NCBI GenBank assembly: GCA_945898055.1
Contig: CAMDGV010000045.1
Span: 1-34,577 of the forward strand
Length of the DNA: 34,577 nucleotides
Direction of reading: 5' to 3'
Origin: Akkermansia muciniphila
GTDB taxonomy: Bacteria; Verrucomicrobiota; Verrucomicrobiia; Limisphaerales; UBA9464
The notes beneath the pieces are model-generated. The model did not search any database. It was not told the DNA's origin and was given only the letters and a program-made list of their open reading frames with translations. Both the position numbers and the translations under genes were made by a program. Of this stretch, positions 1,182 through 34,577 are shown piece by piece. Within the stretch, counting starts at the first letter, position 1; every line of letters starts with the position of its first letter.

Positions 1182-1335
1182 AGGGTATTTTAGTGTCTTC
1201 AGTTACCGACTTGCCCCAAACACAGCAGAAACCCCAAGCGTCTAGGAGGACTCTTGGTAAGTTTTATTAAGTATTAAGTGGGCCCAATTAGTTACGAAAA
1301 ATTCACATCTAGATGCAATAAAGAATTTTTTCAAA

Positions 1336-1370
1336 TTACTGAAAATCAACATATTACAACGAATGTGATC
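1336..1370 (+). repeat. Left copy of an imperfect 35-bp direct repeat flanking the IS remnant
   Basis: This 35-bp stretch matches 2886-2920 in the same orientation at 27 of 35 positions, including TTACT, AATCAAC, ACAACGAA and GTGATC at identical spacing. The two copies bracket the broken transposase. They are too long and too diverged to be an ordinary target-site duplication of an IS3-type element. Confidence 0.6.
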
Positions 1371-1399
1371 GTCAGATGTTGCTGAGTCATTGACTTCAA

Positions 1400-2865
1400 T
1401 GTATGGTAAAAATACACTTCAATATGTTGATCCAAAGCGGTCGCAGACGGAAGCAACGACAATGACCAAAACCACCCCATCTGAGGTGCCCAAGAAGGCC
1501 TCGAAGACGAAGCGACGGTTCCTGACGGCTGAGAAGAAATTTCAGATCTATCTGGAAGCGCAGTCGCCCGACAAACCCGTGGGCGAATTGCTGCGCCGTG
1601 AGGGCCTCTTCGCGACCGATTTGGCTCGCATCCGTCAGCAAGTCAAGGAAGGCGCCCTACAACGCCTCAGCGCCAAGTCTGGAAGGAGGTGCGCGACGGT
1701 CAACCCGAGCGCCTACGACGCAATTAAGCGGGAGCTCCAAGACAAGGAACGCGCCCTAGCGGATTTGAGGGTTGAACTGGCCATCCTGCGAAAGAAAGAC
1801 GAATGGGGGCTCGTGGGACCGATAACCAAGCTGTGGATCAAGGCTGAAACCAAACTTGCCATCCTCGCAGTGATCGAGACCTCCCAGCAGCAAGGCGTGT
1901 CGGCCCGACGCTGTTGTTCCATCCTTAGGATCGAACACCGTCGCGTTGTCCGCTGGCAACAGCGGGCCCGCCAGGGTCAGGGACTGGAGGATCGGGTGCC
2001 CGGTCCCAAAGAGCCGTTGCACCGGATCCTGCCCGAAGAGGTCGCCCGGAGTGTTGCGATGGCCAAGAGTTAGGAATACGTCGATCTGTCCCACCGCATT
2101 CTGGCGGTCACGACCTGCGAAAAATGGCCTATTTAAGGCCTCCTTCTCGACGGTCTACCGGGTTCTCATGGACGAAGAATTGATGACGGCGCGGGGTCCC
2201 GGAGGGCCGCACAACGGCCACCCGAAGGCTCCGGTCCACAAGGTCTTACCGGGTCCAACCAATGGGTGTGTTGGGACATCAGCTACCTTATGATGCATCA
2301 GAAGGGGGAATATCTTTTCCGCTACCTGCTGCTGGATGAGTGGTCCCGAAAGGCCGTCCAGTGGCGCATCGCCTGGCAGCAAACGGCCGACGAATCGCGG
2401 TTACTACTCGAGGGCGGTCTGGTCGAAGAAAACATCCTCGACCTACCGGAGGAACAGCGTCCCGAATTCATCAATGACCGAGGCCGCCAGATGAAGGCCA
2501 AGCCGATCCGTAAGCTATGCAAAGACCACGGCCTGCCCCAGTTGTTTGCCCGCCCACGAACTCCCAACGACAATCCCTTCATCGAGTCGGCGTTCAGCAC
2601 GGTGAAACGGGCACCGGAATATTCCGGGCGCTTCCTCGATGACCACGTGGCCAACGCCTCTTTCGCCCGGTACTTCAATTGGTATGACACCGAGCACTAC
2701 CACTCGGGCATCGACTACGTGACCCCGCAGCAGGCCCACGGCGGACTGCGGGAAAAAATCATCGAAGAACGACGTACAAAAATGTCCTCCCAACGCCGCG
2801 GCGCCGGGAGAAAGGTCCGCCTTTGAAAAAACGAAAAATATCTCCCTATATTGTAGCGTAATACA
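1400..2865 (+). mobile_element. Degenerate IS3-like insertion sequence, ends tentative
   Basis: A broken transposase gene fills this interval. The proposed ends are weakly supported. TGTAT at 1400-1404 faces its complement ATACA at 2861-2865, and an inner imperfect inverted repeat (1413-1426 against 2847-2860, 11 of 14 matching) lies just inside. I could not find a matching short target duplication outside these ends, so the true boundary may be elsewhere, for example nearer the 35-bp direct repeats. Confidence 0.5.
1462..2826 (+). pseudogene. IS3-like transposase, broken by a stop and two frameshifts
   Basis: Reading starts at the ATG at 1462. Residues 1-70 form the OrfA-type helix-turn-helix region (KRRFLTAEKKFQIYLEAQ, then GELLRREGLF), followed by a charged coiled stretch and the HTH_21-type start of the integrase part (SARRCCSILRI). 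A TAG stop lies at 2071-2073. The same frame stays sensible to about 2130, reading then continues in the next frame (FSTVYRVLMDEELM) to about 2260, and returns to the first frame (CWDISYL, INDRGRQMKA, NPFIESAF, FNWYDTEHYHSG) to the TGA at 2824. The aspartates and glutamate of the DDE triad are all present (WDIS, NDRG, IESAF), so loss of activity is due to frame damage. OrfA and OrfB parts are in one frame at the start rather than in the usual overlapping frames. Confidence 0.8.
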
Positions 2866-2885
2866 CAGCCATCTGGTGTCTTAAG

Positions 2886-2920
2886 TTACTTGTAATCAAC
2901 TGGCTACAACGAAGGTGATC
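2886..2920 (+). repeat. Right copy of the imperfect 35-bp direct repeat
   Basis: Partner of 1336-1370, same orientation, 27 of 35 bases identical. It lies about 60 bp beyond the transposase stop codon and 20 bp beyond the tentative right end of the insertion sequence. Confidence 0.6.
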
Positions 2921-3110
2921 CAATCCACGGAGAAGAGACGCTCCCCTTTAGTAACCAACGGTCACCTGGCGCATTCGACTCTGCCCAACTAAGCCTCCGC
3001 CCTCAACGGCGTGGCGGTTCAGCCCAAAACAGCTCCTGCCGGAGGAAATTATGCTCCGAAGGCACCGAATCGGATCCGACGCGTTAGCGCAGGGCGTTTG
3101 GCTGGCAGGT

Positions 3111-3347
3111 TCATAGCATTGGATGGGAGTCAAGGGTCAGTCGCAGGGCGCGGCTTGGGTGGCGAAGGTAGAGTTCAAAGAAGTACGTCAAGGGTTGGCC
3201 GGGTTCGAAGGGGATTAGGCCCCAAGAGGACGTTAGGGTGAGCGCCAGATTGAGCGCAGCGGCCGGTTTGCGATGGCAGTGTCGGTCTTCCTGCCAGGGG
3301 CTGGCGTCACGTTTGTAGTGGTTTCAGTTTTCCACCGACCAGTGCCC
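3111..3347 (-). pseudogene. C-terminal fragment of an ISAs1/H-repeat-like transposase
   Basis: Read on the reverse strand from 3347, the translation gives GHWSVEN, a TGA stop (3326-3324), then NHYKRDASPWQEDRH and NLALTL, ending at a TGA at 3113-3111. The HWSVEN, HY-RDA, ED and NLALT sequence is the C-terminal pattern I associate with ISAs1-type DDE transposases (HW-IEN...LD...ED...ALN). Only the last roughly 80 codons survive, with an internal stop. It reads directly on from the RhuM-like fragment in the same frame. The family call is from memory of the motif. Confidence 0.5.
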
Positions 3348-3365
3348 GCCCCCCATCACATCGGC

Positions 3366-3527
3366 CCGGAGCGTGTAGTCCCGCAGAACTCCCGTGGCCC
3401 ATTGCCGGAAGGCCGTGGCGCGCTTGGAATTCACGCGGTAGCCCACCGCGATGATCACATCGAGGTTGTAGTGCAGGAAATGGTTCTAGGGATTTTTCGC
3501 CGTCTTTTCAACGTCGTCAAACAGGTC
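3366..3527 (-). pseudogene. RhuM-family gene fragment
   Basis: On the reverse strand, positions 3479-3366 encode LHYNLDVIIAVGYRVNSKR followed by FRQWATGVLRDY. This is the highly conserved core of RhuM-type proteins (HYNLD-IISVGYRVNS-RG-FR-WAT-VL), known from a Salmonella pathogenicity island and from many mobile islands. Upstream in frame is LFDDVEKTAKNP and a TAG stop at 3488-3486. The normal N-terminal DNA-binding region and the long C-terminus are absent. The fragment runs without a stop into the transposase fragment at 3347, so two gene scraps have been joined. An open frame on the opposite strand (3273-3638) is only its shadow. Confidence 0.65.
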
Positions 3528-3770
3528 TGGGCCAAGGGGCGTCCGAAGCGAGAATCAACACCACGAGATTGGGTTGAAGAAAACCACTTTAACCGCGGGA
3601 TCTCTGCAAAGCTCGACACTCAAACCATTGCTCGGTGACTAATTTCAATGAAAAGCAGTGTCACTATTCCACTAACATTACTCAAATTGAGCTTGCTGCC
3701 GCCCTAGAATCGATACGTTTGCGTTACCACAGCCTTGGCTTCAACCCCTCTTTTATTCATCCTCACTCTT

Positions 3771-4730
3771 ATGTTCGCGGTTCAGAAATCAGCTCTCCTG
3801 CTTGTTGCCTCTCTCTTGCTGCCCCTCGCAATCAAGGCAGCAACCATGGCTCAAGCCAAATTGATCACCTACCGAAATTGGCCCCAGTGCTGGATTCTCG
3901 ATAACGGATCGGTCAGAGCGGTCATCGTCCCAGCAATCGGTCGGGTCGTACAATTTGGATTCTGCAATAAGCCGGGGGTCTTCTGGGAAAATGATTCGAT
4001 GGACGGAAAATCGGCCGTAAATGCACCTTGGAATAATCCAGGCAGTTTCGGCGGCGATAAAACATGGCCCGCCCCTCAATCCGAATGGACATGGCCACCA
4101 CCCGAGGTCTTTGATCGGACTCCTATGGACTGCATGCCTAATGGGATGGGTGGGGTTCTGCTTGTTTCCATTATTTGTCCCAGATTCGGAATTCGCGTGG
4201 AGCGTTTAATTAGCCTTCATCCCACTAGGCCACAGATGCGGATTGTCACCACCTACCACAAGGTGGAAGGAAATCCGATAGAAGTCTCGATCTGGACCCT
4301 TACTCAGTTACGCGAACCACTAAAGACATTCCTCGCTATCAACCCGAAGTCTCCGCTCGAGACCGAATACACTGGCTCTATGGATGGGGCTGAATCGTTT
4401 TTTCAGGTCGCCAAACGATGGATTTCGATCACCCGCGATCCCGCGGCAGATCACACCGTTGGTTCCGACGCTACTCAGATACTCTGGGTGGGTGAGCACA
4501 GCTGTCTTAAGATCGACTCACCTCGTATCTCACCGGCTCGTTACCCGGAAAAAGGCGCCGGGGTCAGGGTTTTTACTAACGGCAATCCTGCTCGCTTCGT
4601 CGAGGCTCAGACTCTCAGTCCTTTGCAACATCTCAGCGTGGGTGACTCTCTCTCGGCAACCAATACCTACTCACTGTTTCATCGAGCGCGACGCAAGCCA
4701 GACTCCGAGGCGATCGCCCTGCTGAAATAA
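3771..4730 (+). CDS. Exported DUF4380 domain protein
   Basis: I chose the ATG at 3771 because it gives a clean signal peptide (MFAVQKSALLLVASLLLPLA, then IKA-A). A TTG at 3735 is possible but would add an unneeded extension. The mature part has the features of DUF4380: an early beta-rich segment with VRAVIVPAIGRVVQFGF, then FWEND, GGDKTWPAPQ and WPPPEVFD, as in mutarotase-like carbohydrate-binding folds. The family is common in Verrucomicrobia and Planctomycetes and its function is unknown; sugar binding or epimerisation is a guess from the fold. It is the first gene of a plus-strand run, 42 bp before the flavoprotein gene. No Shine-Dalgarno is visible; the upstream bases are pyrimidine-rich. 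Confidence 0.75.
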   Translation: MFAVQKSALLLVASLLLPLAIKAATMAQAKLITYRNWPQCWILDNGSVRAVIVPAIGRVVQFGFCNKPGVFWENDSMDGKSAVNAPWNNPGSFGGDKTWPAPQSEWTWPPPEVFDRTPMDCMPNGMGGVLLVSIICPRFGIRVERLISLHPTRPQMRIVTTYHKVEGNPIEVSIWTLTQLREPLKTFLAINPKSPLETEYTGSMDGAESFFQVAKRWISITRDPAADHTVGSDATQILWVGEHSCLKIDSPRISPARYPEKGAGVRVFTNGNPARFVEAQTLSPLQHLSVGDSLSATNTYSLFHRARRKPDSEAIALLK

Positions 4731-31918: not shown

Positions 31919-32875
31919 TCAGCCGACAAGCACGACAAGTTCTGCACTGAAAGAATTGACGTCAGAAACCAAGATCGCTCGACGCAAGAGTCGCTTTAAT
32001 TCGAGCGCGTCGGTGAGGGACTGAACCTGTTGACGTACTAGGTCAGAGACCTCTCCAAATCGAGTTTCTAGAGCATCTAAGACGGCTTCTTGAGCCTTGT
32101 TACGTTTTCCTTGTTCAATGCCTTGTTCAAGGACGGCGAGTTCGAAACTGCTGATGGGAATCAGGGTGTTGGTTTTTTGTTGGACTTGGAGTTCGGTGTT
32201 GAGTTGTTTTTCTAGATTCTCAGGTAAGGTCATTAACCAGTCAATTAAGCTGAGGATCTTGCTGACTTTTTTGACAGGCATTCCGCGTTGAAAAAAGTCC
32301 CGGATCATTTCGCGTTTGAGCTGATAACGCCCAGGGAGATCGTTCATCGTCTTCTGGGCCGCTAAGTGAGCGTCAATCACCCAGGCCACAGGGTTCCCTT
32401 GGTTGCGTGCGACCGTAAGCCGACGCCCGAGCTTGGAAAGTTTTACCGTGGCAAATTCAAAGGTGATTTTGTTTTTGTTCCGGCGGGCTTCTTTGTACTT
32501 GGAAGGTTGCCAGTCAGGATCGCTGTCGCCGTAGACGACGAGACTAAAGACGTTTTCCTCGTAACGCACCCGAAGACAATATTTGTAAACATAGATACGG
32601 TTTTCGAAGTTAACTTCCTTTTGATTCTGAATTTCGAGGTGAATCAAGCAGCCGCTTTGACTCTGATCTTTGAAGGCTACTTTGATTAATTTATCGACAC
32701 GTTAAAGGCCTTGATTGGCGTTGCGAGTGATTTTCTGGAGTTCGGTATCAAGCCACTCAATGGGGTGGGACCAATCGATGGATTTGGCGATCGAAGGAAA
32801 GCAGAGATCCATGAAAGGTTCGAAGAATTCTTCCAAAGTAGATTTCCAAACGCCGTCGAATTGAAGAGGAGACAT
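31919..32875 (-). pseudogene. Rpn-family PD-(D/E)XK nuclease gene with one in-frame stop
   Basis: From ATG 32875 the reverse strand encodes MSPLQFDGVWK, FEPFMDLCFP and IDWSHPIEWLDTELQ, up to a TAA at codon 58 (32704-32702). It then continues in the same frame with RVDKLIKVAFKDQSQSGCLI, HLEIQNQ, YVYKYCLRVRY and VVYGDSDPDW to a TGA at 31919. The two parts together form a 318-codon protein of normal layout for recombination-promoting nuclease/transposase-like proteins. The stop lies three codons before Asp61 of the VDKL motif; the ExQ motif (EIQ) is downstream. A rescue start at TTG 32647 would lose Asp61, so the nuclease is probably dead unless the stop is read through. The C-terminus has a Glu/Lys-rich helix (LEQGIEQGKRNKAQE). 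Confidence 0.75.
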
Positions 32876-33003
32876 ATCTCAGGATTAGGTTTTCCGGAGA
32901 GTGCCATAATTTGTGAACGACTAACCATGGGCGAGTGGCGCCCACCCCCTCTTTGGCTAAGAAATGGGAATCAGATTTGAGCGAATTTCGCGCCAAGGCC
33001 GGA

Positions 33004-33309
33004 CTAGCATCTGGGAAGAATATTAAGAATGGACCGCACCGTTGAGGGATTCAAACCTGGGGGTAGTCGAATGGCCCAACCGGATGGACGTAAGCGTACG
33101 CCCAACCCCATGCCCAACCCCATGGTTCCCTCGTTGCCGAAAGTAGGATATTCCACGATCGAAGGCGGGGGCGAAAGGTCGACCAACCGGACTAGCCTTT
33201 CGCCGGTTTCCAGTTCCACGGCAGGAGTTCGGCAACCGTAAGGTTCGTTGCCTGTGGAATTGATAGGAATTTGCTTTTTGACGCGGAGGGTAAATGGCGT
33301 TTCCTCCAT
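33004..33309 (-). CDS. Doubtful 101-codon open frame
   Basis: The frame starts with METPF-like MEETPFTLRVKKQIPINS and continues with YGCRTPAVELETGERLVRLV before turning into low-complexity sequence caused by a 12-bp duplication (GLGMGLG). The first 60 residues look protein-like, the last 40 do not. It is upstream of the broken Rpn gene on the same strand. I recognise no family and would not rely on it without homologues. Confidence 0.25.
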   Translation of the reverse strand: MEETPFTLRVKKQIPINSTGNEPYGCRTPAVELETGERLVRLVDLSPPPSIVEYPTFGNEGTMGLGMGLGVRLRPSGWAIRLPPGLNPSTVRSILNILPRC

Positions 33310-33359
33310 CTCGTTGGCGATGCGTTTGGCACGACCTCATAGAGAGTGGGTGAGGTCTC

Positions 33360-33383
33360 ACGCAAAGACGCGGAGACGCAAAG
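33360..33383 (+). repeat. Three tandem 8-bp units (ACGCAAAG type)
   Basis: ACGCAAAG, ACGCGGAG and ACGCAAAG follow one another without spacing. The motif resembles short intergenic repeats with CGCAAAGACGC that I have seen scattered in genomes of several phyla. Confidence 0.7.
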
Positions 33384-33531
33384 GGAAGAAGAGGATTTGG
33401 AGAAGTATTTCATGGCCGTTACAAGCCTTTTCTCCGTTATTTAAAAAACCTCTATCTAGGCGAATCTTCTACAGGCATGATTCCAGAGATTCCCGGGAAA
33501 AATTGTCCGATTTCCAATTCTTGCTCCAGTC

Positions 33532-33885
33532 ATGAGGGACCACCTCCTTTATATTTGTCCCCACTGCGAGACGAGTTGCTCAGTCGCTCTCGATCAGGTG
33601 GGCCGTAACGTCGTCTGCCCCAACTGCTCACAAGAATTTACAGCGACTCCCGTGGACTCAGCCGACTTCCAGCTGCCCGAGACGGTTCCGTTCTTCAAAT
33701 CCGGAAAACTCGAAATTCTCAAAAACCACCTTAACAAACTTACTTCCGACGGAGAATTGAGCGAATCAGACGAAATAGCCCTCACAAGAGCAGCGCTGAT
33801 TTTAATCAAAGGTTTGTTACCAACCAAAATTTTGAAAACTGTGATACTTATAAATTCTATAAAACATGAGGACTATATTATTTAA
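33532..33885 (+). CDS. Small zinc-ribbon protein
   Basis: A 117-residue protein with an N-terminal zinc ribbon: Cys9-x2-Cys12 (ICPHCE) and Cys29-x2-Cys32 (VCPNCSQEF). A linker and a helical, acidic segment (SGKLEILKNHLNKLTSDGEL, then SESDEIALTRAALILIKGLL) follow. The ribbon type is common at the N-terminus of planctomycete and verrucomicrobial proteins of many functions; here nothing recognisable follows. Its last 20 bp overlap the start of the beta-propeller gene in another frame, which points to translational coupling. Confidence 0.7.
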   Translation: MRDHLLYICPHCETSCSVALDQVGRNVVCPNCSQEFTATPVDSADFQLPETVPFFKSGKLEILKNHLNKLTSDGELSESDEIALTRAALILIKGLLPTKILKTVILINSIKHEDYII

Positions 33886-34577
33886 AATTCTAATCTTTAT
33901 TGTAATTAATGTAAAATTAATTGGGCAAACACCCGGGACCAAGAAATGGGAGTTCCTGACAGAAGGAGCGGCCATTTCCTCCCCCGCGATAGGATCCGAC
34001 GGCACGGTGTATGTAGGAAGTGAGGACAGCAAGGTGTACGCGCTGAATGGTGCGACAGGAGCCAAGAAGTGGGAGTTCTTGACAGGAGTATGGGTCAGGT
34101 CCTCCCCCGCGATAGGAACCGACGGCACGGTGTATGTAGGCAGTGGTGACAAAAAGGTGTACGCGCTGAATGGAGCGACGGGTGCCAAAAAGTGGGAGTT
34201 CTTGACGGGTGGATATGTCTCTTCCTCCCCCGCAATCGGATCCGACGGCACGGTGTATGTGGGGAGTCAGGACAACAAGCTGTATGCGCTGAATGGCGCG
34301 ACGGGAGCCAAGAAGTGGGAGTTCCTGACGGGATTTTGGGTCAATTCCTCCCCCGCGATAGGATCTGACGGCACGGTGTATGTGGGCAGTTATGACAAGA
34401 AGGTGTACGCGCTAAATGGCGCGACTGGAGCCAAGAAGTGGGAGTTCCTGACAGAAGGAGGGGTCTCTTCCTCCCCCGCGATAGGATCCGACGGCACGGT
34501 GTATGTGGGCAGTGGAGACGGGAAGGTGTACGCGCTGAATGGCGCGACGGGAGCCAAGAAGTGGGAGTTCCTAACGG
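33866..34577 (+). CDS. Exported PQQ-like beta-propeller repeat protein, 3' end beyond window
   Basis: The frame from ATG 33866 stays open to the window edge (237 codons seen). A signal peptide (ILFKILIFIVINVKLIG) is followed by five full and one partial copy of a 41-residue repeat: KKWEFLT, a variable stretch, SSPAIGSDGTVYVGS, a variable pair, then K-VYALNGATGA. This is the BamB/PQQ-like propeller repeat (W at the blade start, DGTVYVGS, YALNG-G). Each copy would be one blade. Blades are usually diverged; here they are nearly identical, so recent repeat amplification is likely. The antisense frame 33817-34251 is a shadow. Binding partner unknown. Confidence 0.85.
   Translation, partial: MRTILFKILIFIVINVKLIGQTPGTKKWEFLTEGAAISSPAIGSDGTVYVGSEDSKVYALNGATGAKKWEFLTGVWVRSSPAIGTDGTVYVGSGDKKVYALNGATGAKKWEFLTGGYVSSSPAIGSDGTVYVGSQDNKLYALNGATGAKKWEFLTGFWVNSSPAIGSDGTVYVGSYDKKVYALNGATGAKKWEFLTEGGVSSSPAIGSDGTVYVGSGDGKVYALNGATGAKKWEFLT
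33941..34577 (+). repeat. 123-bp tandem repeats in the beta-propeller gene
   Basis: Copies start at 33941, 34064, 34187, 34310, 34433 and 34556 (cut by the edge), with an exact period of 123 bp and no indels. The blocks coding for SSPAIG-DGTVYVGS and VYALNGATGAKKWEF are almost identical in DNA. Differences concentrate in codons 8-12, 28 and 30 of the unit. Confidence 0.95.

Follow-up and report, generated by a model that had tools for sequence, protein, structure and literature searches.

The window analysed here, a stretch of DNA of 34,577 nucleotides, is the whole of contig C45 (exactly 34577 bases) of a draft genome (4.63 Mb, 136 contigs), and it ends within a repeat array. The reading frame at 33866-34576 (+) is still open at the 3' contig end, so that the gene is cut off; it comprises a leader of 25 codons, five whole units of 41 codons and 7 codons of a sixth (Table 1). 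Pfam searches with the encoded protein retrieved PF13360 (PQQ_2, 1.7e-39) and PF13570 (Beta-prop_ACSF4, 2.8e-43), and the PQQ_2 score of 136.3 bits, against a curated cut-off of 27.6, identified the product as a PQQ-like beta-propeller, which is probably exported, judging from its hydrophobic leader. A complete paralogue is present on contig C89. Consecutive blades had a median identity of 0.85 in the window and 0.88 in the first eight blades of C89, placing both among the highly repetitive beta-propellers, for which the identity of consecutive blades exceeds 60%. BamB (PF13360, TIGR03300) shares the PQQ-like propeller fold family, but the blades are near-identical here, and identification as BamB was rejected, as TIGR03300 scores of 114.4 (window) and 227.2 bits (C89) fell below the cut-off of 285.2. 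A PQQ-dependent dehydrogenase was rejected likewise (TIGR03075, 69.6 and 118.1 bits for window and C89, cut-off 480.05).

Table 1. The propeller gene and its upstream features in the window; residue positions are those of the 41-codon unit.
Feature	Coordinates	Strand	Evidence or remark
158-base dispersed repeat	33259..33416	.	98.7% identical to copy behind C89 paralogue
Truncated copy of 299-aa zinc-ribbon-like gene	33532..33885	+	just upstream of propeller gene; longer copy on C23
Propeller gene, 3' part missing; probably exported	33866..34577	+	open ORF, Pfam matches
Leader, 25 codons, hydrophobic, signal-peptide-like	33866..33940	+	sequence; similar in paralogue
Blade 1; residues at 10,12,28,30 = A,I,E,S	33941..34063	+	
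Blade 2; residues at 10,12,28,30 = W,R,G,K	34064..34186	+	
Blade 3; residues at 10,12,28,30 = Y,S,Q,N	34187..34309	+	
Blade 4; residues at 10,12,28,30 = W,N,Y,K	34310..34432	+	
Blade 5; residues at 10,12,28,30 = G,S,G,G	34433..34555	+	
Blade 6 start, KKWEFLT, ended by contig edge	34556..34577	+	

A sequence-only reading of this DNA had described the five blades as a fixed scaffold with hypervariable residues at positions 8-12, 28 and 30. The residues that it quoted for these positions were exact, as were its two exceptions at positions 19 (S/T) and 32 (V/L). It was mistaken in describing synonymous differences in the constant blocks as few: across the 34 constant codons pS was 0.275 and pN 0.010, and a tree-free count yielded at least 17 synonymous changes compared with 2 nonsynonymous ones. 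Silent changes being this common, the blades must be old enough to have collected them, and their scaffold has been kept by selection. For the seven variable codons the corresponding values were 0.318 (pS) and 0.542 (pN). Changes were concentrated at codons 9, 10, 12, 28 and 30, with at least 14 nonsynonymous and 2 synonymous changes, versus at least 4 and 18, respectively, in the other 36 codons (Fisher P 4e-5; no tree is involved, but the sites had been picked on the same data). In the codon test described below, hypervariability held for these five positions but not for position 8, which is either E or G, nor for position 11, which is A once and otherwise V. V11 and D29, each located between variable codons, are nearly fixed.

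The location of the variable sites was examined in an AlphaFold2 model of the window protein built with ten relatives (pLDDT 92.2, falling below 50 at residues 1-18). Strands B, C and D occupy unit positions 22-27, 31-36 and 1-6, respectively, and strand A is a bridge at 16-17, so that positions 8-12 form the D-A loop and positions 28-30 the B-C turn. These two loops are predicted to lie on one face of an up-and-down four-stranded blade. The earlier proposal that the sites face one surface is thus upheld as far as strand order tells, which places them neither buried nor scattered. In Foldseek comparisons the closest solved folds were v31Bagel8 (8prj; rmsd 0.5 A over 211 columns) and Cake8 (6tjg; 0.6 A over 214), both titled as designed or engineered, while propellers of other ring sizes fitted less well (Cake9 1.7 A, Cake6 6.7 A). 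As the best fit was to eight-bladed folds, the five window blades are curved as in an eight-blade ring. To our knowledge, neither v31Bagel8 nor Cake8 has a natural ligand. L063, a relative with eight blades, was also modelled (pLDDT 88.4). Length changes among homologues also touched the D-A loop, which carried 28 of the 62 insertions of at least three residues (strand D 11, C 8, B 7; C-D loop 4, B-C loop 3, A-B loop 1); counting every insertion regardless of length put strand A first (67), followed by the D-A loop (50), and deletions fell in the D-A (132), A-B (66) and C-D (66) loops. Given uncertain alignment edges and non-independent homologues, these counts are at best supportive.

The C89 gene encodes 1134 amino acids, in the order of a leader resembling that of the window (4.0/58 nonsynonymous and 3.0/17 synonymous sites differing), eight 41-aa blades, a TraB/PrgY/gumN domain (3.7e-36), two Ig domains and five more blades, the latter sharing the scaffold. 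Its blades are variable at the same positions as those of the window. Pairing window blades 1-5 in order with C89 blades 1-5 gave 75 differences compared with a mean of 97 over 6720 assignments (P 0.0045), and the order was supported by the variable codons alone (P 0.021) as well as by the constant codons alone (P 0.038). The lowest assignment score was 69, below the 75 of the in-order pairing, so that support for a shared order is good but imperfect. The suggestion that the array evolved by unit shuffling therefore found no support; since blade order has been kept, the comparison points to duplication of the whole gene, followed by point changes, as the probable origin of the window and C89 copies. 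In principle, C45 and C89 could stem from different strains in one bin, for which the contamination estimate is 0.49. The two marker genes used for C45/C89 adjacency lie on separate contigs in the closest sister genome, G008 (94% and 95% protein identity in two housekeeping genes). G008, which is 86% complete, yielded no comparable array (best E 1e-6); its DNA matches C89 from base 4049 onward only (92.8% over 9.7 kb), and neither the propeller gene nor its flank matched either of the two G008 stretches used for the comparison.

Comparison of the two copies, blade by blade in five pairs, revealed opposite regimes at the two classes of site. At positions 8-12, 28 and 30, 33.6 of 80.8 nonsynonymous and 5.4 of 24.2 synonymous sites had changed (dN/dS 2.27), versus 4.5 of 381.2 and 31.5 of 128.8 at the remaining sites (dN/dS 0.04). 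Resampling of 12 blades gave a pN/pS of 1.65 (1.14-2.70) at positions 10, 12, 28 and 30 and of 0.05 (0.02-0.08) at constant sites; with the five window blades only (0.88-3.80, same four positions) or seven C89 blades (0.76-4.36, positions 8-12, 28 and 30), the interval includes 1. Codon likelihood analysis of 15 blades, comprising those of the window and of C89 except C89 blades 8, 11 and 13 with an altered end or insertions, returned omega >1 for just five of the 41 positions (9, 10, 12, 28 and 30) under two trees, with a 2dlnL for the seven variable codons of 23.1 or 60.8 depending on the tree; this home-made test works with a single synonymous rate, lets codons change by one base at a time and presupposes a tree for repeats that may recombine. 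A tree-free count in ten C89 blades, which as paralogues of the window blades are not a fully independent replicate, gave 20 nonsynonymous and 5 synonymous changes at the five positions versus 9 and 18 elsewhere (P 9e-4). The residue combination at positions 10, 12, 28 and 30 was distinct in all 15 blades, and the loops of the other face (positions 19, 36-41, 1 and 2) hardly changed (1.0/100 nonsynonymous sites). Pairwise dN/dS, codon likelihood and tree-free counts thus all bear out a fixed scaffold with sites under diversifying selection.

The same variability could in principle reflect relaxed constraint, that is, ordinary recent amplification of blades in which the best-tolerated sites change. 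Amplification of new propellers is indeed described as common in the available part of a survey of highly repetitive beta-propellers (Pereira and Lupas, 2022; PMC9218822), and variation also peaks at positions 10, 12 and 28 when older arrays are included. However, pN exceeds pS at the variable sites and the omega values above 1 largely contradict this explanation. Older arrays, moreover, vary at further sites, for example 6, 19, 38 and 41, of which 19, 38 and 41 are nearly fixed in the window and C89 blades. A set of stable orthologues served as control: four genes from Opitutia-type metagenome-assembled genomes (L066-L069) each encode eight diverged blades, arranged in a shared order. Four pairs, out of the six that can be formed, had 1.0/93.7, 0.0/93.7, 2.0/94.0 and 3.0/93.3 nonsynonymous changes at the five sites, where pN/pS was 0.00-0.06 compared with 0.12-0.17 for the scaffold. 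This conservation, stronger than that of the scaffold, implies that the five positions matter to the protein and makes relaxed constraint quite unlikely. The Opitutia orthologues keep the five sites, while in the near-identical arrays selection drives them to change; the partner of the protein may be constant for the former and changing for the latter.

We then examined how widely such arrays occur. Three window blades were searched against a sample of 335 genomes from the class, with up to 13 candidates scored in each, and 6 of the 335, including the source genome, matched at 1e-40 or better; the five others included G058, G174 and G215, and codon tests covered the arrays of the remaining two. 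Two of the matching genomes, of different genera, carry near-identical four-blade genes (L177 and L178, 86% identity over 606 bases), in which the five positions were taken as preset sites. Between them, pN was 0.598 and pS 0.169 at positions 9, 10, 12, 28 and 30, compared with 0.049 and 0.249 elsewhere. Inside each gene the preset sites had 11/0 and 9/1 nonsynonymous/synonymous changes, and the other codons of 1-35 had 4/12 and 6/9 (P 1.8e-4 and 0.018). The flanks of L177 and L178 showed no similarity by blastn and one weak stretch by tblastx; their presence in different genera without alike flanks raises the possibility of gene transfer.

The genomes carrying L177 and L178 belong to a second family of the same order, in which 15 of 20 genomes matched at 1e-35, one of them (G380) with 12 matches on five contigs. 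From part of these matches we sampled 40 arrays with 175 units from 53 loci, and the codon test kept 80 units from 29 arrays that shared at least 84% of the scaffold over columns 1-36, variable sites uncounted (95 units were dropped). In these 80 blades omega was 3.86 at the preset sites versus 0.251 elsewhere (2dlnL 175), the filter lowering the scaffold value and leaving the preset-site value unaffected. By site, positions 9, 10, 12 and 28 were above 1 and position 30 at 1; 78 of the 80 units had distinct residues at 10, 12, 28 and 30. Nearest pairs (37 of 40 disjoint pairs, each with at most 15 scaffold differences) gave a pN/pS of 1.75 at preset sites and 0.28 in the scaffold. Beyond these families, a kinase-linked Streptomyces array showed no significant split between preset and other sites (12/1 vs 15/4, P 0.62) and a haloarchaeal array a weak one (16/3 vs 34/27, P 0.03). 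Of 158 plasmid records with a match three were taken up; the blades of a Deinococcus plasmid array proved diverged, and the other two records are covered by the change counts given above. Homologues differed in blade number: among 28 stop-closed reading frames from several families, 14 had eight blades and the rest 2, 3, 4, 5, 7 or 13, a rough start search having been used and some frames being fragments or frame-shifted. Oligomer assembly of short arrays has been tested for WD40 blades, according to the accessible part of one report (PMC6805158), and by analogy shorter PQQ-like arrays could also assemble as oligomers.

The second family also bears on whether a locally raised mutation rate at the D-A loop, through indels, gene conversion or targeted mutagenesis, might produce the pattern instead of selection. 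Two G380 genes with eight-blade arrays (L218 on C12 and L216 on C30) contain three frame changes between adjacent blades, all of them, by eye, within the hypervariable D-A stretch, which would fit such a process if they are real and not assembly errors; a third G380 locus (L219) has a longer out-of-frame gap between blades. In addition, pS is higher at the variable codons than elsewhere, both in the window (0.318 vs 0.275) and in the second-family pairs (0.284 vs 0.131). Yet V11 and D29 are nearly fixed amid the variable codons, pN lies above the local pS, and no template-like copy of the repeat was found in the genome outside C45 and C89, so that we consider raised mutation very improbable. 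The six-frame search, in an assembly 95% complete, likewise speaks against a diversity-generating retroelement target, no near-identical repeat copy having been found beyond the two contigs.

Some arrays are attached to other domains. Single second-family arrays follow a TIR_2 domain (6.2e-10; eight blades), a Trypsin_2 domain (1.7e-28; at least six blades) and a GYF_2 domain, and the Streptomyces array follows a protein kinase; the TIR, trypsin-like and kinase fusions were each seen in one array. PADLOC returned a weak match of the TIR part to a ThsB model (26.8 bits) and a match of the protease part to an RT-protease model (66.4 bits), and found nothing on C89, the TraB-like domain of which had no relative with a solved structure detectable by sequence. 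The TIR array (L225, contig C160 of genome G389, 1264-4413, minus strand) is a candidate defence gene, a single open frame running from the TIR domain through a further region into eight variable blades that are near-identical. Other arrays are short, some with lipoprotein-like leaders.

These architectures help to decide on which side of an interaction the variable face stands. Diversifying selection would leave the same signature if the face were a target and not a sensor, in an exposed protein escaping phages, predators or host factors. The hydrophobic leaders of the window and C89 genes, lipoprotein-like leaders in 6 of the 28 stop-closed frames (by a rough pattern) and multiple copies per genome, such as the G380 matches on five contigs, are compatible with this role. 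The restriction of variation to two loops, with the other face hardly changing, speaks against it, and the fusions to TIR, trypsin-like and kinase domains, one array each, fit a sensor better; on balance a target role appears unlikely.

The arrangement of the sites has a counterpart in fungi. In the accessible portions of the literature, HET-D, HET-E and HNWD of Podospora anserina likewise have near-identical tandem blades with paired selected codons that flank conserved residues in the same two loops. Codons 7, 9, 25 and 27 of the HET-D/E WD40 unit are reported there to be under positive selection and 8 and 26 under purifying selection (PMC1805685), with 7 and 9 in the d-a loop and 25 and 27 in the b-c turn (PMC1805685, PMC2873952). 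The spacing between the pairs is an identical 18 (7,9/25,27 in HET-D/E; 10,12/28,30 around V11 and D29 here), and blades tend to carry their own combination in both cases (55 in 69 in HET-D/E; 15/15 and 78/80 here). Unlike HET-D/E, the arrays studied here have an extra selected site, 9, and consist of PQQ-like and not WD40 blades. As far as the same sources extend, fungal NLRs carry HET and NACHT domains; the Pfam matches of C89 included neither, being to PQQ-like blades, TraB/gumN and Ig domains (the window gene is incomplete). In these sources, concerted evolution and repeat-number polymorphism are established for HET-D/E only.

Other published systems are less close. The PQQ family makes up 1.7% of the set of Pereira and Lupas (2022), whose propellers resemble those described here in having recently amplified blades and disrupted arrays; in the available part of that work the term "positive selection" does not appear, and PQQ propellers are neither tested for selection by codon nor given a fixed set of variable contact sites (PMC9218822). 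NTP-dependent bacterial conflict systems, some of them in Verrucomicrobia, combine propellers with effector and kinase domains but are defined by MoxR-vWA and other cores that were not seen in the arrays tested here, and "PQQ" is never mentioned in the available portion of that text (PMC7159879). We found no report of such selection in PQQ-like propellers in the open-access literature consulted. The window gene is therefore filed as a highly repetitive PQQ-like propeller with a surface like that of the fungal sensor propellers, outside that family.

We conclude, with a probability of roughly two in three, that the window holds the first five-plus blades of a probably exported PQQ-like propeller, one face of which serves in recognition and evolves under diversifying selection. 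Each blade would combine a fixed scaffold with four to five residues offered to a ligand, located in the D-A loop (9, 10, 12) and the B-C turn (28, 30). The blades would have been produced by amplification and the whole gene duplicated to give the window and C89 copies, after which selection may have altered the contact residues blade by blade until each had its own combination. We infer that the residues at the five sites contact a ligand, plausibly a macromolecule that itself changes fast and belongs to a rival, a phage, a predator or kin, and that recognition may be relayed to the attached domains, TraB-like in C89 and TIR, trypsin-like or kinase in single related arrays. The resemblance to fungal self/non-self sensors suggests that bacteria have evolved a similar fast-changing recognition surface.

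More tentatively, and at somewhat less than even odds, these genes may represent a class of prokaryotic variable receptors: PQQ-like propellers with a code of four to five residues per blade and various outputs (TIR, trypsin-like protease, kinase, TraB-like), found in Verrucomicrobiota and perhaps other groups, with a fungal-like code reached independently. The Verrucomicrobiota arrays come from draft genomes, in which misassembly of such repeats from short reads is a real danger, and fungal repeats of this kind cannot be rebuilt from Illumina assemblies according to the accessible part of one study (PMC12222747). If the interpretation is correct, bacteria would have a recognition surface built from repeats, a counterpart to the allorecognition sensors of fungi, and two propeller lineages would have arrived at the same contact-site layout. 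With few and known contact sites per blade, binding specificity would be directly testable by swapping, and positions 9, 10, 12, 28 and 30 provide a rule for picking candidate variable receptors among proteins annotated as "PQQ-binding-like beta-propeller repeat protein".

Several further features of the neighbourhood were recorded. The zinc-ribbon match of the truncated copy upstream of the propeller gene is weak (22.3 bits, cut-off 30.8), and the 299-aa protein itself had no Pfam match. A decayed stretch of this gene also lies ahead of the C89 gene, and truncated copies (L139, L140, L163) also precede a BspA-like LRR gene on C54, which has near-identical repeats and likewise runs off its contig, as well as an unrelated gene on C41. 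As the C41 fragment precedes a different gene, no conclusion was drawn from the placement of these copies. The 158-base repeat, which precedes the window gene and follows the C89 gene, has 63 matches in the genome and consists of two separable parts (about query bases 4-45 and 94-148). A gene at 31919-32928 (-), putatively for an Rpn-type nuclease, is apparently broken by an in-frame stop, and a similar stretch occurs in G008. Near the position that the propeller gene occupies on C89, G008 encodes a repeat protein of 2788 amino acids (L167, 139-8505), which presumably contains Asp-box-like and cadherin-like stretches.
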